Source: Spirochaetaceae bacterium (GTDB lineage Bacteria > Spirochaetota > Spirochaetia > DSM-27196 > Alkalispirochaetaceae). Taken from it: a stretch of DNA of 35,835 bases. Location of the stretch: the NCBI GenBank assembly GCA_007695175.1, contig REEH01000086.1, positions 1 to 35,835 on the forward strand. The letters run 5' to 3'. The notes beneath the pieces are model-generated. The model did no database searches. It was not told the DNA's origin and worked only from the letters and a program-made list of their open reading frames with translations. Made by a program: the position numbers and the translations under genes. Below, piece by piece: positions 6,392-32,940 of the stretch; the first letter of the stretch is position 1, and every line of letters begins with the position of its first letter.

Positions 6392-7342
6392 ATGTTTACC
6401 CTGGAGTTTCTGACAAACCTTCTTTCCGCCACGGTCCGGCTCTCCACTCCGATCACACTGGCCGCGATCGGAGCAACCATCTGCGAGCGCTCGGGAATCG
6501 TCAATATCGCCATGGAAGGCATCATGATCATGGGAGCCTTTTTTGCGGCGATCTTCGCATACACCACGGGCAACCCCTGGATCGGTCTCCTGGCGGGGGT
6601 CGCCTTCGGCGGGATTTACAGCCTGCTCCACGCTTTTGCCACGGTGACGCTCCACCTGGATCACGTGGTAAGCGGAGCGGTGATGAACGTCCTTGCCTTC
6701 GGGATCACCCGATTCCTTATGGTACTGATCATCGGCCATCCCGGGACGACGCCGGCGATTCCCATGGGACTCGGGCGATACCGGTTTGCGATTCCGATCC
6801 TCTCGGACATCCCGGTGATCGGGCGAGCGCTTTTCAACCAGACCCCCATTGTGTATCTCGGGTTCATACTGGTGGCCTTTCTCACGTGGTTTCTCTTCAA
6901 GACCAAAACGGGACTCCATATCCGCGCCGCGGGAGAGCACCCCCTCGCTCTGGAAACGATCGGTGTTTCGGTCTACAAAATGCGCTACCTGGGAGTATTC
7001 ATCAGCGGTCTTGCCAGCGGTCTGGCCGGAGCGTACCTCTCGATCGAGGCCAACGTGAGTTTTACCGAGGGCATGAGCGCCGGTCGTGGATTTATCGCCC
7101 TGGCGGCGATGATCTCCGGCGGGTGGCACCCGATCGGTGCATTCCTGGCGGCTCTCTTCTTCGGTTTTGCCGATGCGCTGCAGGTGCGCTTTCAGGTCTT
7201 GCGCGTGGTCCGGCTCCCGGAAGAGCTTTTCATCGTCTTTCCCTACCTGGTAACGGTCATTGCGGTAGCGGGACTGGTCCGCCGCAGTCGCCCGCCAAAA
7301 GCGGTGGGTAAGGATTTTATGATCGAGCGGAGTGAGGACTGA
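6392..7342 (+). CDS. Nucleoside-type ABC importer, permease 2
   Basis: A 316-residue permease, YufQ/NupQ-like, forming the other half of the channel with the preceding permease. Conserved parts are the N-terminal ICERSGIVNIAMEGIMIMGA, the cytoplasmic loop HIRAAGEHPLALETIGVSV (contact to the ATPase), and GMSAGRGFIALAAMISGGW near the C-terminus. GAGAGG lies just before ATG 6392. The gene ends 170 bases before the binding-protein gene, with a stable GC hairpin between them. Confidence 0.9.
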   Translation: MFTLEFLTNLLSATVRLSTPITLAAIGATICERSGIVNIAMEGIMIMGAFFAAIFAYTTGNPWIGLLAGVAFGGIYSLLHAFATVTLHLDHVVSGAVMNVLAFGITRFLMVLIIGHPGTTPAIPMGLGRYRFAIPILSDIPVIGRALFNQTPIVYLGFILVAFLTWFLFKTKTGLHIRAAGEHPLALETIGVSVYKMRYLGVFISGLASGLAGAYLSIEANVSFTEGMSAGRGFIALAAMISGGWHPIGAFLAALFFGFADALQVRFQVLRVVRLPEELFIVFPYLVTVIAVAGLVRRSRPPKAVGKDFMIERSED

Positions 7343-7354
7343 GTCGCCCCTCCC

Positions 7355-7372
7355 GCGCGGGACGCCCCGCGC
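7355..7372 (+). terminator. GC-rich hairpin between permease 2 and the binding-protein gene
   Basis: GCGCGGG, a 4-base loop ACGC, and CCCGCGC form a perfect 7-bp stem soon after the permease stop. There is no T run, so termination would be weak or Rho-assisted; it could instead protect the 3' end of the permease transcript. Confidence 0.35.
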
Positions 7373-7446
7373 AGGTCGCCCCTTGCATGACGCCCCGCAC
7401 GGGTCGTTCCGGCAGCGTTCGGATGCGGTCAGGCAACCGATTCCGA

Positions 7447-7512: not shown

Positions 7513-8559
7513 ATGAAGAAAGCACTTGTATTGTTGGTACTGCTCGCAGTTGTGTCCACGTTTGTCGTGGCGGGGGGGCGCCCCGAAGCCGCGCCGACCC
7601 GTCGCATCGCCGCGATGGCAACCGACGTGGGCGGTCTCGGAGACCAGAGCTTCAACGACGGCGCCTATCAGGGTCTGCTCCTGGGTGAGCCCCTCGGCTT
7701 TGAGGCACGGGTCGTGGAGAGTAACCAGCAGACCGACTATATCCCCAACCTCAGTGGACTCGCCGAGGATGGCGCGGAGATCGTCTTCGCGGTGGGTTTT
7801 CTCATGGAGGAGGCGGTGAAGGAAGCGGCGCGCATGCATCCCGATACGTACTTTGGCGGTATCGATATCGGTGGCGACGACGATCTCGACAACTTCCAGG
7901 GTATTCTTTACCGGGAAGAGCAGAGCGGCTATCTCGCCGGTATCGTGGCGGGACTCATGACGAACCAGTACGCCGATGCCTCTCCTCGTCTGCGCTCCGA
8001 TCGGAACGTGGTGGGCATCGTCCTGGGCATGTTCATTCCCCCGGTGGAACGCTTTGAGGTGGGGTACATCCAGGGTGTGAAAGCGGTCAACCCTGACGCC
8101 ACGATCCTTTCCGTAACGTCCGGATCCTTCGTGGATCAAGCGGCGGGCCGCGAGGCGACGCTGGCCATGATCGAGCAGGGCGCCGATATCGTCTTCCAGG
8201 CGGCGGGACTCACCGGTCTCGGTGTTATCCAGGCTGCCAACGAGGAAGGTATTTTTGCTATCGGTGTGGACATCGACCAGAACCACGTTGCCCCTGAGAC
8301 GGTGCTCACCAGCGCGATCAAGAAGATCCCCGAGTCCGTGGAGGTCGTCCTCCAGAGCATCGTGGACGGCAATTTCCGCAGCGGCACCGTGAGTTACGGT
8401 CTGGCCGAGGATGCAACCGGACTGGCTCCCTTCCACCAGCACGACGCGATCGTTCCCCAGGCCGTGAAGGACGCGGTGGACGACGCAATCCGGGGTATCC
8501 TGGACGGCTCGATCGAGGTGGCGACCTCCCGGTCCCAGATTCAGCACCTTCTGGACTGA
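7513..8559 (+). CDS. BMP-family nucleoside-binding protein of the ABC importer
   Basis: A 348-residue periplasmic substrate-binding protein of the Bmp/PnrA/NupN family, whose characterised members bind purine nucleosides. Start ATG 7513 is preceded by AAAGGAGG; the open frame extends to 7387 but that part is leader. The N-terminus is a Sec signal (MKKALVLLVLLAVVSTF) followed by VVAGGRPEA, without the cysteine expected of a lipoprotein. Family motifs include DVGGLGDQSFNDGAY near the N-terminus, the FGGIDIGGDDD region, and EGIFAIGVDIDQN. Unusually it is the last gene of the cluster and has its own promoter. A terminator follows at 8684. Confidence 0.9.
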   Translation: MKKALVLLVLLAVVSTFVVAGGRPEAAPTRRIAAMATDVGGLGDQSFNDGAYQGLLLGEPLGFEARVVESNQQTDYIPNLSGLAEDGAEIVFAVGFLMEEAVKEAARMHPDTYFGGIDIGGDDDLDNFQGILYREEQSGYLAGIVAGLMTNQYADASPRLRSDRNVVGIVLGMFIPPVERFEVGYIQGVKAVNPDATILSVTSGSFVDQAAGREATLAMIEQGADIVFQAAGLTGLGVIQAANEEGIFAIGVDIDQNHVAPETVLTSAIKKIPESVEVVLQSIVDGNFRSGTVSYGLAEDATGLAPFHQHDAIVPQAVKDAVDDAIRGILDGSIEVATSRSQIQHLLD

Positions 8560-9701: not shown

Positions 9702-11050
9702 TGGGCAACCATGGGCACGTGAGCGCCGAGGCGCGCGGCCCGGTCCCGATGCCGCCCTGTATTGTCCGGGATCCTTCCCTCGCTCCCGAGGGAAACCGCA
9801 AGATCGAATGGGTGCGTCGCAACATGCCTGTCCTCCGGGGCCTGGAGGAACGATACGGCCGGGAGCGGCCCTTTGCCGGTCTCCGCACGACGGTAAGCGT
9901 TCACCTGGAAGCCAAGACCGCCTACCTGGCCCTGGTCCTCGCCGCGGGTGGTGCCCAGGTATCCGTCACGGGGAGCAACCCTCTCTCCACCAAGGACGAC
10001 GTGGTGGCGGCCCTGGCGGAGCGGGGACTCCACGTCTACGCGTGGCACGGAGCCACGCGGGAAGAGTTTGAGGAGCACCAGCTTACGGCGCTGCAGGTGG
10101 TGCCCCACTTCGTGATCGACGACGGGGGCGACCTGGTGCACCATCTGCACGAGGGAGCACGACAGTACGCCCGGGAGATGCTTGGCGCCTGCGAGGAAAC
10201 GACCGCGGGGGTGCTGCGAAACAGGGCCAGGCAGGACGCGGGGGCGCTGCTCTTTCCCGTGATCGCCGTGAACGACGCAAAGATGAAGCATCTCTTTGAC
10301 AACCAGTACGGTACGGGGCAGAGCACGATGGATGCCATCATGCGCACCACCAACCTGGTGGTGACCGGAACTACCGTGGCGGTGGCGGGCTTCGGCTGGT
10401 GCGGCCGGGGGATCGCCGCCCGTGCCGCGGGAATGGGTGCTCACGTTATCGTCTGTGAGGTGGACGAGATAAAGGCGCTGGAGGCGGTGATGGAGGGATA
10501 CCGGGTGATGCCCATGATGGAGGCGGCCCGAGAGAGCGACTTCATCATTACCACCACGGGTGTAAAGAACGTCCTGGCCGGGGAACACGTGGCGGCTCTC
10601 AAGGATGGAGCCATCCTGGCCAACGCGGGACACTTTTTTGACGAGATTGACCTGGATGCGCTCCGGGCCGGGAGCGATGAGGTGCTTGAGGTGCGGCAGA
10701 ACCTTACCGGATACCACCTGCGGGACGGCCGGTGGATCAACGTGATAGCGGACGGTAAGATTGTGAACATCTCCGCCGCCGATGGACACCCGGCGGAGAT
10801 CATGGACACCAGTTTTGCCGTTCAGGCCCTGAGTGCGGAGTATCTGGTGCGGCAGTGGAGCAGCGGTGCCGCTGGTAACACTGGCGCCGGTGACGTCGCC
10901 GGCACCGGCGCACCCCTGCCCGCGGGGGTGATTCCCGTACCGGAGGAAATCGACTACGCCGTGGCGCGGCTGAAACTGGAGTCTCTCGGCGTTCGTCTCG
11001 ATGAGCTCACCGGGGAGCAGCGGGCGTATCTGGCGGACTTCAACAAGTAG
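9701..11050 (+). CDS. ahcY: Adenosylhomocysteinase (Thermotoga/archaeal-type)
   Basis: A 449-residue NAD-dependent hydrolase splitting S-adenosylhomocysteine into homocysteine and a nucleoside. Start ATG 9701 shares a base with the PNP stop and has GGAGG just upstream; GTG 9698 is in frame but less likely. Motifs: SVHLEAKTAYLAL near residue 67, IDDGGDL near 139, EETTAGV near 165, NDAKMKHLFDNQYGTGQST with Lys196 and Asp200, the NAD loop GFGWCGRG (230-237), and ANAGHF. Two positions differ from Thermotoga maritima SAHH as I remember it (LEMKTA, EETTTGV); they could bear on whether adenine or hypoxanthine is preferred. Near the C-terminus three degenerate 15-bp units (10865-10909) encode a Gly/Ala-rich insert. 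Confidence 0.92.
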   Translation: MGNHGHVSAEARGPVPMPPCIVRDPSLAPEGNRKIEWVRRNMPVLRGLEERYGRERPFAGLRTTVSVHLEAKTAYLALVLAAGGAQVSVTGSNPLSTKDDVVAALAERGLHVYAWHGATREEFEEHQLTALQVVPHFVIDDGGDLVHHLHEGARQYAREMLGACEETTAGVLRNRARQDAGALLFPVIAVNDAKMKHLFDNQYGTGQSTMDAIMRTTNLVVTGTTVAVAGFGWCGRGIAARAAGMGAHVIVCEVDEIKALEAVMEGYRVMPMMEAARESDFIITTTGVKNVLAGEHVAALKDGAILANAGHFFDEIDLDALRAGSDEVLEVRQNLTGYHLRDGRWINVIADGKIVNISAADGHPAEIMDTSFAVQALSAEYLVRQWSSGAAGNTGAGDVAGTGAPLPAGVIPVPEEIDYAVARLKLESLGVRLDELTGEQRAYLADFNK

Positions 11051-11136: not shown

Positions 11137-12189
11137 ATGATACGTTTTCACGAAGTTACAAAAGATTACGGTGATATTCTGGCTCTGCAGGATGTGTCGT
11201 TCACGATCCCTCCGGGAGGGATAACGGGAATGCTCGGTCCCAACGGCGCCGGAAAGACCACGGCCATGCGCATCATGACGGGTTTCCTCGCGCCGACCCG
11301 GGGCGAGGTATACCTGGAGGGCGAGCCTTTCGGCCCGGAGAGCGTGGAAGCCCGGCGCCGCATCGGCTACCTGCCGGAATCGTCACCCCTCTACAACGAT
11401 ATGCTTGCCTGGGATTACCTCGCTTACGAGGCTCGTGTCCACGGTATCGATCCGGCCACGAGTGTTCCCAGGGTGATTCGTCGGGTGGCGCTCGGCAGTC
11501 ACGCCCACAAGCCGATCCGGGAGCTCTCCCGGGGGTTTCGGCAGCGTGTCGGCCTGGCGCACGCGCTGCTCCACGATCCGGAGCTCCTGATCCTGGACGA
11601 ACCGACCAGCGGTCTCGATCCCAACCAGATCATTGAGGTGCGCGCGCTCATCCGGGAAATTGCCGAGACCACCACCATCATCCTCTCCACTCATATCATG
11701 CAGGAGGTGGAAGCACTCTGTGACCGCGTGCTTGTCATCCACCGGGGGCGGATTCGCTACGAGGGGCCGATCGGTGAGTTTGTCGCCGCGGCGGAACCCG
11801 CCGCCGCGGAGTCCGGCGCCGCGGAGTCCGGCGAGGTGGGAGGGGTGCAGCGGATGCGCCTGCTCGTGGGCGGCATCGCCTTTCCGGCGCTTCGGGAGAT
11901 CCTGACGGCGGTACCCGGTTTCCGGGATCTGGAGCTGCTGGATGAGATTTCCGAGAACACCTCGGCCGGTACCGCCGATGGTCCACTTATGAGGGTGCGC
12001 CTCACCGTGGAGAATGCCCCGGATGCACGCCCCCGCGTCTTTCGGATCGCTGCCGGATACGAACCCGAAAGCGGTGGAGGCGTTCGGGGTGAGGCCGGCC
12101 CCCGCTTCATTCTGTACGAGATCTTCCGTGAAAAGACCTCCCTGGAGGATGTCTTCCACGATCTCACCCGGGAGGCCGTCCATGAGTGA
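11137..12189 (+). CDS. Gld-like ABC system, ATP-binding protein (GldA-type)
   Basis: A 350-residue ABC ATPase. Walker A GPNGAGKTT lies near residues 34-42, signature LSRGFRQRVGLAHAL near 128, Walker B LLILDEPTSGLDPNQ near 150, and STHIMQEVEALCDRV carries the switch His. The first 220 residues match the GldA/CcmA class of exporters and multidrug-type ATPases. The C-terminal 120 residues are an extra alpha/beta domain of a kind often seen in this subfamily, preceded by an Ala/Glu/Ser linker built from two perfect 15-bp repeats at 11803-11832. The ribosome site before ATG 11137 is poor. The stop overlaps the permease start by 8 bases, placing it in a four-gene operon. Confidence 0.88.
   Translation: MIRFHEVTKDYGDILALQDVSFTIPPGGITGMLGPNGAGKTTAMRIMTGFLAPTRGEVYLEGEPFGPESVEARRRIGYLPESSPLYNDMLAWDYLAYEARVHGIDPATSVPRVIRRVALGSHAHKPIRELSRGFRQRVGLAHALLHDPELLILDEPTSGLDPNQIIEVRALIREIAETTTIILSTHIMQEVEALCDRVLVIHRGRIRYEGPIGEFVAAAEPAAAESGAAESGEVGGVQRMRLLVGGIAFPALREILTAVPGFRDLELLDEISENTSAGTADGPLMRVRLTVENAPDARPRVFRIAAGYEPESGGGVRGEAGPRFILYEIFREKTSLEDVFHDLTREAVHE
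11803..11832 (+). repeat. Two perfect 15-bp tandem repeats in the ABC ATPase gene
   Basis: GCCGCGGAGTCCGGC occurs twice in direct succession, in frame, following a degenerate copy upstream. It encodes an AAESG-type linker between the ATPase domain and the C-terminal domain. Confidence 0.9.
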
Positions 12190-12973
12190 TGCACCGGTGC
12201 GGAAGCCTTCCGGCGGCACTCGTCGCGGCCACGCCCGTCGCGGCGGCACCCGTCCCGTGACCGGCCGGATATCGGCGGTGGCGGCGATAACCCGACGCGA
12301 GCTGGCGGCATACTTCCAGTCGCCCGTGGCGTACGTGGCGGCGGTGGTCTTTCTCGTGGCTTCCGGGAGCCTTTTCTTCTCCACCTTCTTTCTCTTCGAT
12401 CGGGCCGAGATGCGGCAGTTCTTTGCCACTCTGCCCTTCCTGCTGGCGCTTCTGATGCCGGCACTGGCCATGCGCCTGATCGCGGAGGAACGGCGCCGGG
12501 GAACGTGGGAGGTTCTGGTGACGCTCCCGGTGGGCACCACCGGCGTCCTCCTGGCGAAGTTTCTCGCCCTCTGGATCACCGGAACGGCCTTGCTGATTCC
12601 TACTCTCTTCTTCGGTATCTCCGTGAGTTCCCTGGGCTCCCTGGATCCCGGACCAGTGGTGGGTGGCTATATCGGAGCGGTCCTCCTGGTCGGCGCCTAT
12701 GGTGCAGTCGGGATATTTGCCTCCGCTTTCTCCCGCACTGAAACGGTAGCCCTCGTGGTCGGACTGGTGATTACCCTCGCCCTGGTAATCATGGAGGGCT
12801 TCCTCGTACTTGCACCGGCCCCGCTTGTACCGATCCTGCAGTTCCTGGGAACGACGTACCATTTTGCGGGATTCACCCGGGGTGTACTGGACTCCCGCTC
12901 GCTGGTCTATTTTTTCAGCGTGATCGCGCTCTTTCTCGGCCTGGCGGACTACCGTCTCGCGAGGGAACGGTAG
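12182..12973 (+). CDS. Gld-like ABC system, permease (GldF-type)
   Basis: A 263-residue ABC-2 permease. The start is ATG 12182, with GGGAGG about 7 bases upstream; the open frame to the left is a shadow of the ATPase gene. About 35 Arg/Gly-rich N-terminal residues, partly encoded by three 15-bp units at 12215-12259, precede the core. The core begins with ITRRELAAYFQSPVAYV, followed by about six membrane helices and the conserved loop AEERRRGTWEVLVTLPV, characteristic of GldF/ABC-2 type permeases. It probably pairs with the upstream ATPase, and the GldG-like protein 12 bases downstream is the usual third component. Confidence 0.88.
   Translation: MSDAPVRKPSGGTRRGHARRGGTRPVTGRISAVAAITRRELAAYFQSPVAYVAAVVFLVASGSLFFSTFFLFDRAEMRQFFATLPFLLALLMPALAMRLIAEERRRGTWEVLVTLPVGTTGVLLAKFLALWITGTALLIPTLFFGISVSSLGSLDPGPVVGGYIGAVLLVGAYGAVGIFASAFSRTETVALVVGLVITLALVIMEGFLVLAPAPLVPILQFLGTTYHFAGFTRGVLDSRSLVYFFSVIALFLGLADYRLARER
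12215..12259 (+). repeat. Three degenerate 15-bp tandem repeats at the permease N-terminus
   Basis: Units 12215-12229, 12230-12244 and 12245-12259 encode GTRRG, HARRG and GTRPV. They add a basic, probably cytoplasmic tail ahead of the first membrane helix. Confidence 0.75.
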
Positions 12974-12985
12974 GAGAGGCTGCCC

Positions 12986-15073
12986 ATGCGACGATTTGCC
13001 ACGGTAAACCTGATACTCCTTGTGCTCGTGATCATCCTGCTGAATCTGGTGGCGCGGGAGAGTTTCTTCCGGGTGGATCTGACCGCCGGTGGAGCGTACA
13101 GCCTCTCCAGACTGAGCCGCGAGATCGTCGCCGGCGCCGAGGACCCCCTGCACGTCAAAGTGTTCTACTCCGACCAGGTGCCGCCGCCCTACAACGGGGT
13201 GCGCCGTTACCTGCTGGATCTCCTGCGTGAGTACGAGGCGATAGGCCGCGGGCGCTTCAGTTACGAGATTGTGGACACATCGACGCCCGAGGGACGTGGA
13301 AGCGCCGGAGAATACGGGTTGCGGCAGGTGGAAATCCAGGAGGTGCGCTCCGACGAGTTTCAGTCCCGCGCGGTTTTTCTGGGAGCGGTTGTTCTCTACG
13401 GAAACGCCCTGGAACGGGTGGATCCCATCACTGCCACGGACGGCCTGGAGTACCGCCTGACTACCGCCATGGGAAGAGCGATCAGTCAGGTTGACGCTCT
13501 CGCCGGGTCCCCCGAGCCGGTGATCATGCGGGCTTTCCTCACCCCGGGTTTGCGCGATCTTGGCATACAGGGAATCGGAGAGTTACCGGAGCAGCTGCGT
13601 TCGATCCACTCGCGCCTCAACCGTGAAAACTACGAGCGCATCCGTTTCGAACTGCACGAACCGACCGGATCCGAGGTGGAAGAACTCGCGGCGGAGTACG
13701 GCCTGCGGCCTCTGCGCTGGCAGGACGGGGCGGGGCGGGAGCACCCGGGGCTGGTGGAGATCCTTCTCTCCCGGGGCGATCGCCACCAGGCGATACCTCT
13801 TGAGATCTATTCCGGGTTCCTGGGCGACTATTCCCTGGACGAGCCGTCGGCAATCGAGGAGGCGCTACGCCTCGGCCTGAGAGCGCTTGTCACGGCCAAT
13901 CCGCGCGTGGGATATGCTACGGGCACGGGTGAGCGGAGACCCGATGATTACCGGGCGGGGGCCGGCCCCTTCGCGGACCTTCTGGGGGAACGGTACGAGC
14001 TTTTTCCGATACAGGTCGCGGAGGAGCGGATTCCGCCCGATATCGAAACGCTGATCGTGAACGGCCCCCGCGAAGCGTACTCTGAAACGGCACTCTACCG
14101 CATCGACCAGTTCGTCATGAGTGGCGGTTCCCTTCTCGTCTTTCTTGACCGGTTTGAGGAGCAGGTGCCGACGCAGCAGGAGATGATGCTCGGCGAACAG
14201 CCGGAGTGGCACCGGATCAACAGTGGTTTGGAACCGCTTCTCTCCCACTATGGAATCCGCGTCTCGGACGAGCTCGTTCTCGACGAGGAGGGATTCGTCG
14301 CAAGTTCCCAGGGTCGGCGCGTCACGATCCATCAGGCACCGGTACTCCGGGGGTCCTCCCTCAACCGGGAGCACGTAATTACCCGGGACCTGGAGGATAT
14401 GATCGTCCTGAACACCTGGGAGATCCGGCCGGGAGCGGGGGTGATTCCGCTCCTGGAGACATCTCCCCGCAGCTGGACGGTGGAACATCCCTCCGATGCC
14501 GGTCCCTGGCTGGAAGGCGTGCCACCCGGCGTCACACCGGACCGCAGAATCGTGGCCGCATTGCGGGAGCATCAGTTTGAGAGCTTTTTCGCGGTGCCTC
14601 CGGAGCCGGACCGAAGCACCGAGGCGGACCGACGCGCCGAGGCGGACTCGGCGTCGGATAGTGCGCCCGGCGCGGCCCAGCCTAGCGCGACCGAGCCCGG
14701 CGCGACCCAACTCGAAACGGACCGGCACCGGTCGGAGGCGGTCCGGGAGGCTCGCATACTCGTCGTCGGTTCTTCGGAACTCACCACGGCTCAATTGATC
14801 GATCCGCAGCAGCGGACCGCCAACAGCACCTTCCTCATGAACGCTCTGGATTATCTTATGGGAGCACCCGCATTCGCGGAACTGCGCGGCAAGGGCCTTG
14901 GAGTGGCGCGGCTGGAGGTCAATAATCCCGCGCTGCCCGGAGTAATCCGGTGGCTCAATATCATCCTGGTACCCCTCCTGGTGGTAATGACAGGACTTCT
15001 GGTAAAGCTGAGACGTCGCGCCCGGAGCCGCCGTATCCAGCAGCTCTTCCGGGAGGAGGGTACGACCCCATGA
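12986..15073 (+). CDS. Gld-like ABC system, auxiliary protein (GldG-type)
   Basis: A 695-residue protein resembling the GldG auxiliary component (ABC_transp_aux). An N-terminal helix (LILLVLVIILLNLVA, about residues 8-22) is followed by FRVDLTAGGAYSLS, the usual GldG beginning, then a large presumably periplasmic domain, and a second helix near the C-terminus (IILVPLLVVMTGLLV, about residues 655-670) with a basic cytoplasmic end. The motif GGSLLVFLDRF near residue 375 is typical of the family. Residues about 540-590 are low complexity, coded by 18-bp and 15-bp tandem repeats. GGAGAGG overlapping the permease stop serves as ribosome site. In Bacteroidetes the complex is linked to gliding; in spirochaetes its substrate is unknown. 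Confidence 0.85.
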   Translation: MRRFATVNLILLVLVIILLNLVARESFFRVDLTAGGAYSLSRLSREIVAGAEDPLHVKVFYSDQVPPPYNGVRRYLLDLLREYEAIGRGRFSYEIVDTSTPEGRGSAGEYGLRQVEIQEVRSDEFQSRAVFLGAVVLYGNALERVDPITATDGLEYRLTTAMGRAISQVDALAGSPEPVIMRAFLTPGLRDLGIQGIGELPEQLRSIHSRLNRENYERIRFELHEPTGSEVEELAAEYGLRPLRWQDGAGREHPGLVEILLSRGDRHQAIPLEIYSGFLGDYSLDEPSAIEEALRLGLRALVTANPRVGYATGTGERRPDDYRAGAGPFADLLGERYELFPIQVAEERIPPDIETLIVNGPREAYSETALYRIDQFVMSGGSLLVFLDRFEEQVPTQQEMMLGEQPEWHRINSGLEPLLSHYGIRVSDELVLDEEGFVASSQGRRVTIHQAPVLRGSSLNREHVITRDLEDMIVLNTWEIRPGAGVIPLLETSPRSWTVEHPSDAGPWLEGVPPGVTPDRRIVAALREHQFESFFAVPPEPDRSTEADRRAEADSASDSAPGAAQPSATEPGATQLETDRHRSEAVREARILVVGSSELTTAQLIDPQQRTANSTFLMNALDYLMGAPAFAELRGKGLGVARLEVNNPALPGVIRWLNIILVPLLVVMTGLLVKLRRRARSRRIQQLFREEGTTP
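14609..14710 (+). repeat. 18-bp and 15-bp tandem repeats in the GldG-like gene
   Basis: Three 18-bp units (14609-14626, 14627-14644 and the diverged 14645-14662) encode DRSTEA, DRRAEA and DSASDS. Three 15-bp units (14666-14680, 14681-14695, 14696-14710) encode PGAAQ, PSATE and PGATQ. All keep the reading frame. Confidence 0.88.
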
Positions 15074-16076: not shown

Positions 16077-16122
16077 GCGTCACGGCCGGGCGCGCGCGGC
16101 CAGCGCCGAGGCGCGGTGACGC
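16077..16122. other. Predicted three-way junction at converging gene ends
   Basis: GCGTCAC (16077-16083) pairs with GTGACGC (16116-16122). Inside, GGCCG (16084-16088) pairs with CGGCC (16097-16101), and GCGC (16103-16106) pairs with GCGC (16111-16114). Only two bases at the junction stay unpaired. The structure spans the 11-base gap between two converging genes and the last codons of the deaminase. It has no T run on either strand, so it is not a standard terminator. Confidence 0.6.
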
Positions 16123-17423
16123 GCTTCCTGAAGGACCTCCCGGCTATCCGGTATCGTCCGCCCTTCCATCAGTATCTGCCCGGCGCAGATCACCGTGTCG
16201 ACGACGCCACCGTTGGCGGCATAGGCGAGGTTGCTCTCCAGATTGTGCACCGGCACCATCTGCGGGTGGTCCAGATCAACCAGCACCACGTCAGCGGGGC
16301 CCCCCTCCGTGAGCGCCCCGCCTACACCGGAATCGGCAAAGAGCGTGCTTCGTGCCCCCGTGGCTATCGCCAGGATCTCCTCCGCCGGCAGGCGCGTAGG
16401 ATCGCCGTAGTGGTGCTTCTGAAGGAGCGCCGCCAGCTTCATCTCGTCAAACATGTCCAGGTTGTTGTTGCTCGCCACGCCGTCCGGCGCGAGCATGACC
16501 GGCACGCTCCGATCGGCGTACTCCCGCCAGGGGAAACAGCCCGAGGCGAGTTTCATGTTGCTCGCCGGATTGTGAGCCACCGTGACGCCGTACTTCGCCA
16601 CCAGATCAAGCTCGATCCTGTCGAGCCAGACCGCGTGGGCCGCGATCATGCGTGATCCCGCCGCCTCCAGGACACCCAGCTGCTCCAGCCACTGAAAGGG
16701 TCTCAGGCCACGGGCGTCGAGGCAGTCCCGCACCTCCTGCTCCGTCTCGCTCATGTGGATGTGAAAAACGAGACCCTGGTCCGCCGCCAGCGCCGCCGCC
16801 CACTGCAGGAGCTCGCCGCTGCACGTATAGATACTGTGCGGCGCGATGGTGGGGAAGACCGGGTCAGGTATCGGCGAAGGGGCTCCGTGCTCCTGGCGCA
16901 GCAGCTCCATCACCTCTTCCTGCAAGGCCGCCCGCCGGGCGGAGTCGCCAAAGTCAAAGAGCGCGTACCCCACGGCGGCGCGCATCCCCGCGTCCCGGAA
17001 GGCCTGCCGCACGCGCGGTGCCTGGAAATACATATCATTGGCAAAGGTGGTACCGCTGGAGATCATCTCCAGCGCCGCCAGGCGCGTTCCCCAGTAGATA
17101 TCCTCCCCCGTAAGCTGCGCCTCCGCGGGCCAGATCCGTTCCTGCAGCCACGGCAGGAGGCGCATATCGTCGCCGTACCCCCGCAGGAGCGTCATGGCCG
17201 CGTGGGTGTGGGCATTCTTGAAACCCGCCAGGGCCGCTTTTCCCCGGCCGTCAATCCGGCGCATTTCCGTATCGATCGGGCCGGTCGAGCCGATCGGGCC
17301 GGTGGACCGAATCGCCGCGATACGCCCCTGATCCAGAACGAGGTCGCATCGCTCCTGCACTCCCGCAGTGGTGAGTACGTAGTCCACGTTCTCCACGATG
17401 ATCGCAGTGGGCGGCACGTTCAT
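16080..17423 (-). CDS. mtaD: 5-methylthioadenosine/S-adenosylhomocysteine deaminase
   Basis: A 447-residue metal-dependent amidohydrolase that would deaminate S-adenosylhomocysteine to S-inosylhomocysteine and/or MTA to methylthioinosine. Zinc ligands and catalytic residues are visible: NAHTH (His72, His74), HIHMSET (His221, His223, Glu226), His263 in AAHAVW, and Asp314 in APDGVASNNNLDMFDE. The SNNNLDMF segment is highly characteristic of the MtaD/SAH deaminase branch of chlorohydrolase-like enzymes. I chose ATG 17423, overlapping the flavoprotein stop (ATGA). An 18-bp tandem repeat at 17273-17303 adds STGPIG units near residue 45. It is the last gene of the sulfur operon. Other adenine deaminations are possible and the substrate is not proven. 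Confidence 0.85.
   Translation of the reverse strand: MNVPPTAIIVENVDYVLTTAGVQERCDLVLDQGRIAAIRSTGPIGSTGPIDTEMRRIDGRGKAALAGFKNAHTHAAMTLLRGYGDDMRLLPWLQERIWPAEAQLTGEDIYWGTRLAALEMISSGTTFANDMYFQAPRVRQAFRDAGMRAAVGYALFDFGDSARRAALQEEVMELLRQEHGAPSPIPDPVFPTIAPHSIYTCSGELLQWAAALAADQGLVFHIHMSETEQEVRDCLDARGLRPFQWLEQLGVLEAAGSRMIAAHAVWLDRIELDLVAKYGVTVAHNPASNMKLASGCFPWREYADRSVPVMLAPDGVASNNNLDMFDEMKLAALLQKHHYGDPTRLPAEEILAIATGARSTLFADSGVGGALTEGGPADVVLVDLDHPQMVPVHNLESNLAYAANGGVVDTVICAGQILMEGRTIPDSREVLQEARHRASALAARARP
17273..17303 (-). repeat. 18-bp tandem repeat in the deaminase gene
   Basis: CGATCGGGCCGGT occurs at 17273-17285 and 17291-17303, a period of 18 bases, in frame. It encodes a duplicated STGPI-type hexapeptide in the N-terminal beta domain. 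Confidence 0.85.
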
Positions 17424-18688
17424 GGGAAAGATTCCACCACGTCCACGGGATCGTCCACGAGTTTGTTCAACTGTGCGATGATCGATTTGCGGTCGCACCG
17501 GGCGCGCGTTTCCACGATCTCACCGTCAACGGTGTAGAAGACCGTCATGGGTTCCACGTCGCATCCGAGTTGCTCGCAAAGGGAATGATTTCTGTACTGG
17601 TCAATAACGCTGAGCTTGACCTGTCCCCCGTAGGCGCTCTCCACTTCCCGCATGATCGGAAGCAACTCCTGGCTCGGCGCATCGATTGCGCTGTAAATGT
17701 AGATCAGTCCGATTTTCTCTTTCTGGAGGATGTCCCGTTCAAAGCGGGTCGATTCAGCGATATACTTTTCCGCCCCGACTCCCGCGACGGCGCCGTCCGA
17801 TACGGCGGTTACCACCTGGCGCAGGTTTTTCTCCCTCACGTCGCCGCAGGCAAAGACACCGGGAATGCCTGTTTCCATCGCCTCGTTCGTGATGATGTAG
17901 TTTCGTCGAGACATCTCCACCTTGCCGAGAAAAAGCTCCGTATTTGGCTCATAACCGATAAATTCGAAACAGGTATCCACCTCATAGGGCGTTACTTCGC
18001 CCGACTTGAGGTTTTTGAGATTGACCCGCTCAAGCGTCTCTCCCCCCTCAAAACTGTCGACGATCGTGTTCCAGGCGAAGCTCATTTTCGGATTTGCCAG
18101 GGCTGCGTCCCGGGCAGTTTCGTTGCAGTCCATCTGCGGCTCGTCATGAATGACACTCACGATCACTTCCCGGGCGAATCTGGTGAGGTACGTCCCCTCC
18201 TCGATCGCCGAGTCACCGGAACCGATTACCATGACCGTCTTGCCCTCGCTTGCCGCGGCATCGCAGGTTGCGCAGAACGAGATCCCCCGGTTGTAGAGGA
18301 ACTTCTCCTCGTTTTGCGCCCGCGTGACGCGGGGTCTTCCACCGGTAGCGATAATCACGACCCGGGCATCGTAGACGGTGCGAAAGGTCTCGATCCGCCT
18401 GGAATCACAGCGAAACTCCACGTCTTTCACGTCGGTCATCTTGAACTTGATCCCGAACTTGCGGGCCTGCCTGTGAAAGAGTTCCGTGAGTTCCGGACCC
18501 GTAATTCCTTCGGGGAACCCGGGGTAATTCTCGATCGTGTTCGTGTTGGTTGCGAGGCCACCCATCATCGTCTTTTCCAGGAGGAGCGTGTCGAGATGAG
18601 CCCGGCCGCAGTAGATTGCCGCGGCCAGACCGGCGGGGCCGCCCCCGATTATCACCACGTCGTAGTGTTCTTTCTTTTTCTCACCCAT
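17420..18688 (-). CDS. Thioredoxin-reductase-like flavoprotein with C-terminal degenerate thioredoxin domain
   Basis: A 422-residue protein. The FAD motif GGGPAG is at residues 15-20, the redox pair CATC at 139-142, the dinucleotide loop GSGDSA at 156-161 and FACGDV at 279-284, as in low-molecular-weight thioredoxin reductases. The HRRxxxR segment that binds the NADPH 2'-phosphate is absent; the corresponding stretch reads VIHDEPQMDCNETA, so NADH, ferredoxin or another donor must be considered. Residues about 327-410 have a thioredoxin-like pattern including a likely cis-Pro (VEPMTVFY), but SAIDAPSQ stands where CGPC is expected, so this domain is probably not redox-active. It follows the thiosulfate transport genes by 24 bases and overlaps mtaD. 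It may reduce TusA-bound persulfide or transported sulfur (inference). Confidence 0.85.
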   Translation of the reverse strand: MGEKKKEHYDVVIIGGGPAGLAAAIYCGRAHLDTLLLEKTMMGGLATNTNTIENYPGFPEGITGPELTELFHRQARKFGIKFKMTDVKDVEFRCDSRRIETFRTVYDARVVIIATGGRPRVTRAQNEEKFLYNRGISFCATCDAAASEGKTVMVIGSGDSAIEEGTYLTRFAREVIVSVIHDEPQMDCNETARDAALANPKMSFAWNTIVDSFEGGETLERVNLKNLKSGEVTPYEVDTCFEFIGYEPNTELFLGKVEMSRRNYIITNEAMETGIPGVFACGDVREKNLRQVVTAVSDGAVAGVGAEKYIAESTRFERDILQKEKIGLIYIYSAIDAPSQELLPIMREVESAYGGQVKLSVIDQYRNHSLCEQLGCDVEPMTVFYTVDGEIVETRARCDRKSIIAQLNKLVDDPVDVVESFP

Positions 18689-24850: not shown

Positions 24851-27800
24851 TCAGGGGGAGTCGGAGCCCGGTTTGCCGGATTTCTTTCGGCGCGAACCGG
24901 TGCTGCCACTGCTCCTCTTTCCGCCGTTCCTCTTTCCGCCCGGGGAAGGTGAGGCACCTGACGGTTCCAGAGCCGCGAAGAGCTGGTCCACCCGGAATCC
25001 GCTATTCTGTTCCGCATCCATCCACTGACGGTACATCCGCGCCATTGCCGCCGTCTCCCGGGTGACTCTCTTCCAGCTGACACGTGCTCCCGTCGCGACC
25101 GCTGCCGTCAGCTCATGCCACGCTCCGATTACCAGGAGCCAGTCCGTGAGCAGCTCAAACGCTTCCTGATTGAACCAGGTCGTGCCCTGATGGAGGTGAA
25201 TCTGCAGAAATCTCTCCACGTTGGGGTCCGCCAGGAGTACCTCGATCACCGTTCGGGCCGCATCCTCGGGCTCGACCGGCGCGGTATAGCGCCACCAGTT
25301 GTGGTGGGCCAGCGTAATCTGGACAAGCTGCTCCCAGTATCCCGGCAGCTCGCCATCGGGCTGGATCTGCGCGAGAATCGGTTTGATCGTCTCGATCAGC
25401 TGCCACTCGCCGGCCTGGTCAAGCGCGTAAAACCCTACCAGCTGGGGACTGATCTCGTCTTCCCCGTTGATGAACACGTCCAACGGTAAAAGCAGGGTCA
25501 GGGCGAGGAAGACCGAGGCGTCCTCCCGTTCCGCTTCGAGATGGGAAGCTATCAGCGCTCCCACCTCGTCGGGAGCGTGCTTGACCAGCTGGGCGAGCCG
25601 GTCAAGCGCCTCGCCGTTGTGCTGGAAGAGCGCTATCGCCTCATCCATCCGCGTGGTGTGTTCGCAGAACTGGGCGGCTATACCCAGGAAGGTACGGTAC
25701 TGTCCGGCCAGCTCCTCCCAGTCCACGGGGGCGACCGTTCCCAGAAGCGATTCCCGGAGGTTGCGCAGTACACCTGTATTGGCCAGCATCCCGAAAGCGT
25801 CATGCAGCGGCTGAAGCATGAGCCGCTTCATGCAGCGGTGGATGTCCGGTGTCCCCGCGCCATTGAGGTGATCCGCCAGGCGTGCGTAATGGGAAAAGCG
25901 GTTGTCCTCCTCCTCGTATATGTTGAGAAAGACCTGGCTCTCGTACCCTTTCAGTTCCAGAAAGAGGCCGCGCTCGGCGATTTCCGCGCTGTTGCGGATA
26001 TACCAGAGGCCGCTGCGCTGTTCCTGGAAGATCACATAGTGATGCCATGAGGCATGCAGTCCCAGGGCCGGTATCAGCTGCTCCGTGTAGGGAGTGCGCG
26101 CCTCATCGCCGTGCAGGACGTACGGTGCCGAGGTGTGCACCCAGCCGGCGATGCTTTCATAGCTGTTGTTGTAGAGTACCAGAGCGCGCTCATCACCGTG
26201 GCGATTTGAGTAGACGTACACGTGGGGCTGAACGTTGCCGTCCGCGTCGTACACGTCGTACAGACGGAAGTGCGTGGCGTCGGCGAAGATGTGGCGCCGA
26301 TGTATGAGGGGAAAGATTTCCCGCGTGTGCCGCTCGATCAGCCCCTCGTTTGGTGTCTCGTCCCAGTACGCTTTGCGGTACTCCATGCCGTATTTTTCCG
26401 CCAGACCCTCGATCTGCCCGTGGCCGAACATGGGCAGTCCCGGCATCGTAACCATCAGGGTAGCCACGCCGAAGTACTTGTCTCCCGTGCCGAACTGGGC
26501 CACCGCCGTATCCTCGTCGGGATTATTCATGAAGTTGACAAATCGCTTGAGCACTTCCGGATCATATTCCAGGGTGTTCTTGATCGTCCGGCGGTATTTT
26601 TCGTTGTCCTCGTTCTTGAGCATGTTCATGAAGGCGCTGTTGTACACGCGATGCATCCCCAGGTTGCGTACGAAGTAGCTCTCCATCATCCAGAATGCTT
26701 CCGCCAGGAGGAGCGTGTCCGGCACCTCCTGAGCGACCCGGTCAACCACTTCGCGCCAGAACTCGACCGGTATCGCCGCGTCAAAGTCCGCCTGACTCAG
26801 GCCATGTTCCGCCCGGGAAGGAATATCTCCCCCCTGCCCCGGGGCGGGATACCACAGACGCTGGATATGCTTCTTCGCGAGCGTCATGGCCGCGTCAAAA
26901 CGGATGATCGGGAAGTTTCGTGCTACCTCGAGAATTGTCCGGATAACCGCCTCCCGCACCTCCGCGTTGAGGTAGTCCAGCTGCGCCGTGTCGTTCCAGG
27001 GCATGCTGGTGCCGTCGTTTCCGTGGTAGATGTAGCGTTCCTCACCGGTTCCGGAATCCACACGCTTGAACACTACCGCTGCGTCGCTGCGATCGTAGTA
27101 GTGGTCCTCCAGGTAGATTCCGACGCCGTCGCGGGTACTGAGATTCTCGCCGTGAAAGGTGTAGCCGGGAAAGGGCGAATGCGGCAGCGATATGTACCAC
27201 TCCGGGTGTTCGTGAACCCAGCGGGAATCGATGCCCGTGTGGTTGGGTACCATATCGCTGGCGACGCGAATACCCCGCTGCCAGAGGCGACGCCGCAGGT
27301 TGTCCAGGGCATCCCATCCGCCCAGCTCCCGGGCGATCTCGTAGTCGTAGAGCGAGTAGGCGCTGGCTTCCGCCTCGGGGTTGCCGCAGAGGTTCTTGAT
27401 TCTTCGTGATGCGCCGGAGCGCTGCCACAGTCCGATGAGCCAGAGCGCGGTAAAACCCTGCCGCCCCAGGGTATCCAGTTCCTGGTCGGGTATTTCCTCA
27501 AGCGTCCGGATCTCGTACTGGTACTTTTTTGAAAGCTGATCCAGCCAGACCAGGGTGCTTTTTGCGATGATTACCGCCCGGGGCATCCACTCCCGATCCG
27601 GACTGAAGCGGGCGTAGTCCTCATCACCTCCCCCGGAACTCCAGTCGTATTCAAGTACCTCGCTCTCCCCGGTACCAGGGAAGCGCGCCTTCTGTTCCTC
27701 CGTGATGTAGTCGAGGGAACGCAGAATGCGGTCGAGAAAGCTCCCCACCAGCGATCCCCACCGGGTGCGGATGTAATCCAGCTGTGCGTGAAGGTCCTGG

Positions 27801-31209: not shown

Positions 31210-32940
31210 TCAACGCAGGGATTCGTAAATACGGCGTGCAATGGGCATGCGCCGGCCCGTCCCGAAGGCGCGGGGACTCACCTTGAGGACCGGGGGTGCC
31301 TGCCGGCGCTTGTACTCGCTCCGTCCTACCAGTTCCAGTACCCGGGCGACCAGGGCCGGATCGTTTCCTTCCGCTACGATCTGGGAGAAGGTGTGGCTCG
31401 ATATGAGATAGCTCGCGAGTATGCGGTCCAGCACAGGGTAGGGGGGCAGGCTGTCCTGATCCGTCTGGTTTGGACGCAGTTCCGCCGAGGGCGCCTTGGA
31501 AATGATCGATTCGGGAATGATCTCTCCCTGCCTGTTGATGTATCGGCACAGCGCGTATACTTCCGTTTTGAAGAGATCTCCGATTACCGCCAGAGCTCCT
31601 GCCATATCGCCGTAGAGCGTACAGTACCCCACGGCAAGTTCGCTCTTGTTACCGGTGGTGAGAGTGAGGGATCCGAACTTGTTGGACCATCCCATGAGGA
31701 GCGTGCCCCGCACGCGAGCCTGGATGTTTTCCTCCGTCACTCCCTCCTCCGTGCCGGCGAAGTGCTGCTCCAGGGCGGCCGCGAAAGCGTCGTAGACGGG
31801 CTGTATCGGTAAGGTATCGGCTCTGATGCCGAGGTTGAGCGCGAGCTGCCGGGCGTCGGTGATACTGCCCTCGCTGGAGTATCGTGAGGGCATGAGAAAG
31901 GCCCGTACCTTCCCGGCTCCCACGGCACGCACCGCGAGAACGGCCACGAGCGCGGAATCAACGCCGCCGGAGAGCCCCAGGTGTACCGTGGTGAATCCCG
32001 TTTTCTCCAGGTAATCCCGGATGCCGAGGATGAGCGCCGCTTCCAGTTCCATCAGGTCTCCCGCGGTGAGAGGGCGGGGTGTGTCCTCCGTCAGAAACGC
32101 CCCGTGGTCGGGAGGGACAACGTCCGGAGCTGAAACATCCGGTGTCGAAGCATCCGGGTCCGGAACATCGGCCGGCGGAACCTCGAAAACGCGCAGATCC
32201 TCCACGAATCCCGGAAGCTGGTGCAGAATCCTCCCCCTACCGTCGGCCACGATCGATGCGCCGTCGAAGACGAGGCTGTCGTTCCCGCCCACGGCGTTGA
32301 CATAGACCACGGGAACTCCGCCGTTCGTGCCGATCGAGGAGACCAGCTTGCGGCGGATCGCTCCCTTCCCCACGTGGAAGGGGCTCGCCGAGGGGGCTAT
32401 GATCATCGTCGCTCCCGCATCGAGCAGGTCGCGCACGGGATCTACCGGGTAACGTCGCCCTGCAACCGGTTCAGCCTCCCACCAGATATCCTCGCAGATC
32501 GCGATACCGATCCGTTCACCCCCATAGGGCCAGACCCGTGATTCCCGGGCCGGCTCAAAGTAGCGCGCCTCGTCAAAGACATCGTACGTGGGCAGCAGCC
32601 GCTTTGCCTGGCGGAACTGAATCGCTCCGTCCCGGAGAAGGGCCACCACGTTCCGCAGGCTCCGGCCGGCGGGGTCCCGACTCCGGTCCACGTAACCGAC
32701 CACGATGGCGATACCGGGAGGTTGCTGCTGCTGCAGGCTTCGCAGGGCATGCAGATTCTCTTCCACGAAGGTCTCGTGATCCAGCAGATCCATGGGGGGA
32801 TAACCGCATAGAGAAAGCTCCGGGAAGATGGCGATTTCCGCACCCTCCTGGAGTGCCTCCAGGGTGAAGCGCAGAATTCGGTTCCGGTTTCCCTCAAAAT
32901 CACCGATCGTACTGTTAATCTGGCCGATTGCAATCTTCAC
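31210..32940 (-). CDS. nadE: Glutamine-dependent NAD+ synthetase
   Basis: A 576-residue two-domain enzyme making NAD+ from nicotinate adenine dinucleotide, using ammonia from glutamine. The N-terminal nitrilase-type glutaminase has the triad Glu41 (FPELSLCGYP), Lys113 (RQAKRLLPTYD) and Cys149 (AICEDIWW). The C-terminal ATP-pyrophosphatase domain has LSGGVDSA at 323-330 and TGNKSELAVGYCTLYGDMAG. Between the domains, residues about 256-280 are a Pro/Asp-rich insert coded by four 15-bp tandem units. The start is GTG 32940, with GAGG 9 bases upstream. It is divergent from the SDR-like gene, sharing a very short promoter region. Confidence 0.93.
   Translation of the reverse strand: MKIAIGQINSTIGDFEGNRNRILRFTLEALQEGAEIAIFPELSLCGYPPMDLLDHETFVEENLHALRSLQQQQPPGIAIVVGYVDRSRDPAGRSLRNVVALLRDGAIQFRQAKRLLPTYDVFDEARYFEPARESRVWPYGGERIGIAICEDIWWEAEPVAGRRYPVDPVRDLLDAGATMIIAPSASPFHVGKGAIRRKLVSSIGTNGGVPVVYVNAVGGNDSLVFDGASIVADGRGRILHQLPGFVEDLRVFEVPPADVPDPDASTPDVSAPDVVPPDHGAFLTEDTPRPLTAGDLMELEAALILGIRDYLEKTGFTTVHLGLSGGVDSALVAVLAVRAVGAGKVRAFLMPSRYSSEGSITDARQLALNLGIRADTLPIQPVYDAFAAALEQHFAGTEEGVTEENIQARVRGTLLMGWSNKFGSLTLTTGNKSELAVGYCTLYGDMAGALAVIGDLFKTEVYALCRYINRQGEIIPESIISKAPSAELRPNQTDQDSLPPYPVLDRILASYLISSHTFSQIVAEGNDPALVARVLELVGRSEYKRRQAPPVLKVSPRAFGTGRRMPIARRIYESLR
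32119..32178 (-). repeat. Four 15-bp tandem repeats in nadE
   Basis: Units 32119-32133, 32134-32148, 32149-32163 and 32164-32178 are imperfect 15-bp copies sharing an AACATCCGG-like core. They encode a pentapeptide series related to STPDV and SAPDV between the two enzyme domains. Confidence 0.88.

Follow-up and report, generated by a model that had tools for sequence, protein, structure and literature searches.

Tandem duplications of about 10 to 24 bp in nadE and other genes of a draft spirochaete genome, and their relation to reading frame

Replication slippage has been given as the origin of small variable segments and minisatellite-like repeats of bacterial genomes, most of which are too short for RecA recombination (PMC2884548). 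The arrays described here are likewise short in-frame segments within genes, but they consist of 12 to 24 bp units in two to four copies, are spread across ordinary enzymes and are denser than in the other phyla sampled. They share the richness in disorder-promoting residues and the bias to linkers and termini with the repeats of a census of protein tandem repeats (PMC7230257); that census covers proteins across life, whereas here the DNA-level origin and the excess in one lineage were tested. In a survey of prokaryotes, close direct repeats were often over-represented between genes, as they are here, and genes were mostly normal (PMC4060949), whereas here genes also carry an excess, almost wholly in multiples of three. 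No paper on such short tandem duplications in spirochaetes was found in the open-access literature searched. We propose, with a probability of about 0.78, that short stretches of about 10 to 24 bp are duplicated in tandem all over the genome, most likely by slippage, and that the arrays are those copies that have passed a filter of reading frame and tolerance and then decay.

Arrays of nadE and of the rest of the window

The window, that is the whole stretch of DNA analyzed, is an entire contig of 35,835 bases (62% GC) from a 3.72-Mb draft spirochaete genome (G000), whose closest named relatives are metagenome assemblies of uncultured Spirochaeta sp. with NadE proteins 67-68% identical. Comparisons drew on six congeners (G001 to G006), a genome of the same order (G012) and other phyla, which were sampled through their nadE loci. 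Sites in the window were scored by their lag identity at each position, with shuffles of the neighboring codons as the null, and the P values given below apply to sites chosen beforehand by eye. The nadE gene and its array are:

31210..32940, minus strand: nadE, glutamine-dependent NAD+ synthetase, 576 aa, intact (NF010588, 659.5 bits)
32119..32178, minus strand: 15-bp repeat of nadE in four degenerate units, encoding residues 255-274 in the stretch that joins the glutaminase (nitrilase) domain to the NAD synthase domain

Four 15-bp units had been predicted in nadE, and they were recovered in degenerate form with a lag identity of 30/45 (67%, P 0.0005); Tandem Repeats Finder (TRF) reports 32119-32169 with period 15, 3.4 copies and 72% matches. 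The array falls between the two Pfam domains of the protein, nitrilase-type at residues 2-259 and synthase at 303-548, in a linker of about 42 residues as against about 16-20 in solved relatives. In the AlphaFold2 model the linker has the lowest confidence (pLDDT 44, 32 and 45 in the ten-residue blocks of residues 261-290, for a model mean of 83.5). Glu41, Lys113 and Cys149, the catalytic residues expected of a nitrilase-type domain, do not vary across the alignment. In G002, the nearest species, 2.7 copies of a 42-bp unit, 98% identical, occupy the same linker, which carries 12-bp units in G001 and 15-bp units in the more distant G061. The G002 array (locus L021) is apparently a recent expansion, and a perfect 24-bp direct tandem duplication was seen immediately upstream of nadE in G006 (locus L008).

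The other sites of the window are:

7352..7398, no strand assigned: 14-bp array between genes, 3.4 copies, out-of-frame period (TRF)
10865..10909, plus strand: low-complexity Gly/Ala stretch in ahcY, no significant 15-bp repeat
11787..11833, plus strand: 15-bp array C-terminal of the ATPase domain of a GldA-like ABC ATPase, 3.1 copies by TRF
12211..12259, plus strand: array of 15-bp units, N-terminal tail of a GldF-like permease (TRF 12211-12254, 2.9 copies)
14603..14647, plus strand: 18-bp array in the linker of a GldG-like protein (TRF period 18)
14665..14710, plus strand: 15-bp array in the same GldG linker (TRF 14665-14709, 3.0 copies)
17273..17303, minus strand: short repeat with a period of 9/18 bp, encoding STGPIGSTGPI, within the gene at 16080-17498
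24914..24940, minus strand: 15-bp unit in 1.8 copies, C-terminal low-complexity tail of a GH13-like protein, below the TRF threshold

The ATPase has two perfect 15-bp units at 11803-11832 (15/15, P 0.0005), as had been noticed, with the array spanning residues 217-233 and the ABC_tran match ending at residue 158. The 15-bp repeats of the permease (20/30, P 0.001) and of the GldG-like protein (22/30, P 0.0005) were also borne out; the family match of the permease begins at about 12281, downstream of its array, and the gene probably starts at the ATG at 12182, in overlap with the 3' end of the ATPase gene. Other claims stood in part. The 18-bp repeat predicted at 14609-14662 was found at 22/36 (P 0.012), but its third unit mismatches and the array ends near 14647. 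The GH13 tail matches at 12/12 positions at lag 15 (P 0.0005), a weaker case with its 1.8 copies, and the 18-bp period at 17273-17303 (13/13 at lag 18) is also a weaker case that TRF reads instead as 9 bp in 3.2 copies. The degenerate repeat proposed in ahcY was not above chance (16/30, 53%, P 0.15). As anticipated, the arrays noted in genes of the window keep the reading frame and their unit sequences vary from gene to gene. The array at 7352-7398 lies between the ORF at 6392-7342 and a likely lipoprotein gene with a probable start near 7513, and its 14-bp period is expected because frame is irrelevant at an intergenic site. As for the GldG linker in relatives, an 18-bp unit in 3.4 copies occurs in G005 and 9-bp units in G006; G002 is without the insertion and has no array there, with 37 residues versus 73 over the aligned span (36 shorter).

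Excess over chance and distribution among lineages

Arrays with a TRF score of at least 50 were counted in 0.75 Mb of G000 (about one fifth of the genome, including 0.69 Mb of genes), 0.80 Mb of G005, 0.40 Mb of G003, 0.32 Mb of G012 and nadE loci of other phyla totalling 0.84 Mb, and the null was obtained by shuffling codons within 30-codon blocks. Genes of G000 held 22 period-15 arrays with 1.2 expected and those of its congener G005 held 17 with 1.1 expected, an excess of about 15- to 18-fold, and 15 was the most frequent TRF period in the genes of both. No excess at this period was present in genes of the congener G003 (2 vs 1.3 expected), which has the highest GC content (64%) and gave 8 arrays at period 18 with 1.6 expected, nor in those of G012 (1 vs 0.8) or of the other phyla (2 vs 1.4). 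The two comparisons attached to the original prediction came out in its favor: the period distribution differs from that of codon-matched shuffles, and GC-rich DNA from elsewhere does not carry the repeats to the same extent, with one period-15 array in 0.495 Mb of other-phyla loci of at least 60% GC and the near-chance count of the 64% GC congener G003.

Between genes, the number of arrays per Mb was 498 in G000, 491 in G005, 294 in G003, 117 in the other phyla and 114 in G012, although gene calls relied on a home-made codon model, and part of the arrays counted as intergenic may sit in missed genes. The density in G000 and G005 is about four times that of the other phyla (p 1e-6 and 6e-8, respectively). 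The proposal of a lineage-wide process is therefore supported by G000 and G005 and more weakly by G003, and the excess is absent or much lower in G012 and the other phyla. The process is uneven within the genus, as G003 has less of the intergenic excess and, in its genes, no surplus at period 15. In the other-phyla sample (locus L093 and more) 14-bp duplications dominate, some of them of the GGCAAAGGAATGG type, a different repeat type.

Length spectrum, reading frame and origin of the copies

Near-perfect duplications were also tallied directly, without TRF, because a TRF score of 50 misses exactly two copies of a 12-bp unit, and the TRF spectrum favors 15 for this reason. By the direct count the excess over shuffles in genes of G000 and G005 was 17 and 11, respectively, at 12 bp, 14 and 9 at 15 bp, and 2 and 5 at 18 bp. 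The expected surplus of 15-bp over 12-bp periods in genes was not borne out, since 12-bp duplications are in equal excess. Between genes, arrays occur at every period from about 10 to 24: the pooled duplications of G000, G003 and G005 number 12, 7, 10, 9, 6 and 5 at 12, 13, 14, 15, 16 and 18 bp, with six more at 19-24 bp. Among duplications of 13-30 bp, 36 of 42 in genes are multiples of three as compared to 16 of 43 between genes (Fisher p 5e-6). The initial picture of 15- and 18-bp repeats is thus what a reading-frame filter makes of a smooth length spectrum, in which 15 is one in-frame value.

These counts bear on a rival explanation, in which a process preferring 15 bp, that is pentapeptides, adds linkers to housekeeping enzymes and the added length is selected. 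In line with it, period 15 tops the TRF periods in genes of G000 and G005, and five of the twelve near-perfect intergenic duplications of at least 13 bp in G000 are 15 bp long, a larger share than in G005, on very small numbers. However, the TRF threshold is itself biased toward 15, the excess at 12 bp is equal, periods between genes range from about 10 to 24 and orthologous linkers use units of 9, 12, 18 and 42 bp. No five-residue unit with a length preference or a conserved sequence was found, as units differ and 12 bp is as frequent in excess, and we consider this explanation improbable. The 15-base repeats of nadE and its neighbors look like ordinary survivors of the general process.

The reading frame also bears on assembly artefacts of metagenome-assembled genomes. 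G000, G003 and G005 are drafts of 256, about 100 and about 70 contigs, respectively, and short-read assemblers can misplace tandem copies. Yet an artefact would hardly keep the frame in 36 of 42 genic duplications, the copies carry point differences, and the other-phyla loci, mostly metagenome assemblies too, are without the excess, all of which makes this explanation scarcely credible.

We then compared the arrays with a protein-preserving control in which synonymous codons were permuted within each gene. Period-15 arrays fell from 22 to 6.5 in G000 and from 17 to 3.6 in G005, that is 70-80% of them were removed, and the copies are therefore duplicated DNA. The alternative is a protein-level likeness, due either to the composition of low-complexity linkers with much Pro, Ala, Gly, Ser and Asp or to selection acting on their peptides. 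Some arrays may be partly of this kind, given that 6.5 of 22 survive the permutation, that disorder-promoting residues make up 0.82 of the arrays and that the ahcY stretch does not exceed chance. For most arrays it is contradicted by the loss on permutation; moreover, 30-codon shuffles retain local composition but give 1.2 arrays, and perfect arrays are found between genes too, so that as a general account it seems very unlikely. The idea of independent slippage-type duplication was supported, as the similarity is at the DNA level and the same linkers of orthologues carry different arrays. Of the features looked for in slippage-type coding tandem repeats, above-chance copies, DNA-level similarity and a frame filter in genes, with all periods outside them, were found; as to copy number, the differences seen in the same linkers are between species, the nearest genomes being only about 70% identical in NadE.

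Slippage is the simplest and most likely source of such copies. The nascent strand would stall or dissociate and re-anneal a short way back on the template (replication slippage or template realignment), so that one copy becomes two, and more slippage between the copies could yield three or four. Between genes every length would survive; inside genes almost only multiples of three would do so, mainly in disordered linkers and termini, where the added residues of a linker are probably neutral. Point mutation would later erode the copies, and for this reason degenerate arrays such as that of nadE are presumably old and near-perfect ones, such as those of the ATPase and of G002 nadE, presumably young.

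The two-copy arrays allow a further comparison. Subtracting two periods from their length mostly leaves -1 to 3, with little extra homology at the ends, and no strong microhomology was seen at the duplication ends in these arrays. Little terminal homology is what fill-in of staggered breaks would give, and the duplications might then come from end joining instead of slippage. We looked for Ku (PF02735) and it was found in none of the eight genus and family genomes G000 to G007, which are 80-97% complete, and in only one of the 81 genomes searched; classical bacterial end joining is therefore unlikely, and we give the end-joining origin as a whole little credence, a Ku-independent route being conceivable. 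As for repair genes, mutS was found in every genus genome but G001, which is 80% complete; mismatch repair works best on loops of 1-3 bases (PMC4060949), and the presence of MutS is therefore no argument against duplications of this size. The genes recJ (split in G004) and xseA (ExoVII large subunit) and a dinB-type polymerase gene are present in all genus genomes. Loss of a repair gene was considered as the cause of a raised rate, and these searches revealed no absence that could explain it.

Location of the arrays and supply of duplications

The original prediction placed the repeats at domain linkers or tails, and this is correct as a tendency: Pfam matches contain 9 of 25 arrays where 15.3 are expected (P 0.003), the outer 10% of the protein holds 17 of 39 arrays, and the proportion of disorder-promoting residues is 0.82 in the arrays as compared to 0.62 in the host proteins. 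Between genes of G000, G003 and G005 the density per Mb is 1367 in convergent, 540 in same-direction and 345 in divergent regions. The four-fold difference between convergent and divergent genes also fits a filter by tolerance. A lineage that differs in its tolerance of duplications and not in their supply is a less likely alternative, as the intergenic excess does not follow easily from it.

It is possible, though we regard it as rather doubtful, that the replication or repair machinery of this clade has changed so as to raise tandem duplication of 10-24 bp several-fold, with interdomain linkers of housekeeping enzymes being remodelled much faster than in other bacteria. If the supply is truly raised in one clade, a comparison of its members would show how linker length evolves in essential enzymes, and a search for the responsible change in repair or replication becomes possible. 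If it is not, the genomes still offer a clear case of a smooth spectrum filtered by frame into apparent 15- and 18-bp repeats.

As a separate observation, one protein with RRFEEQTASFN-like repeats (L201:1399-2049, minus strand) is built of 33-bp and 21-bp units that are up to 97% identical.
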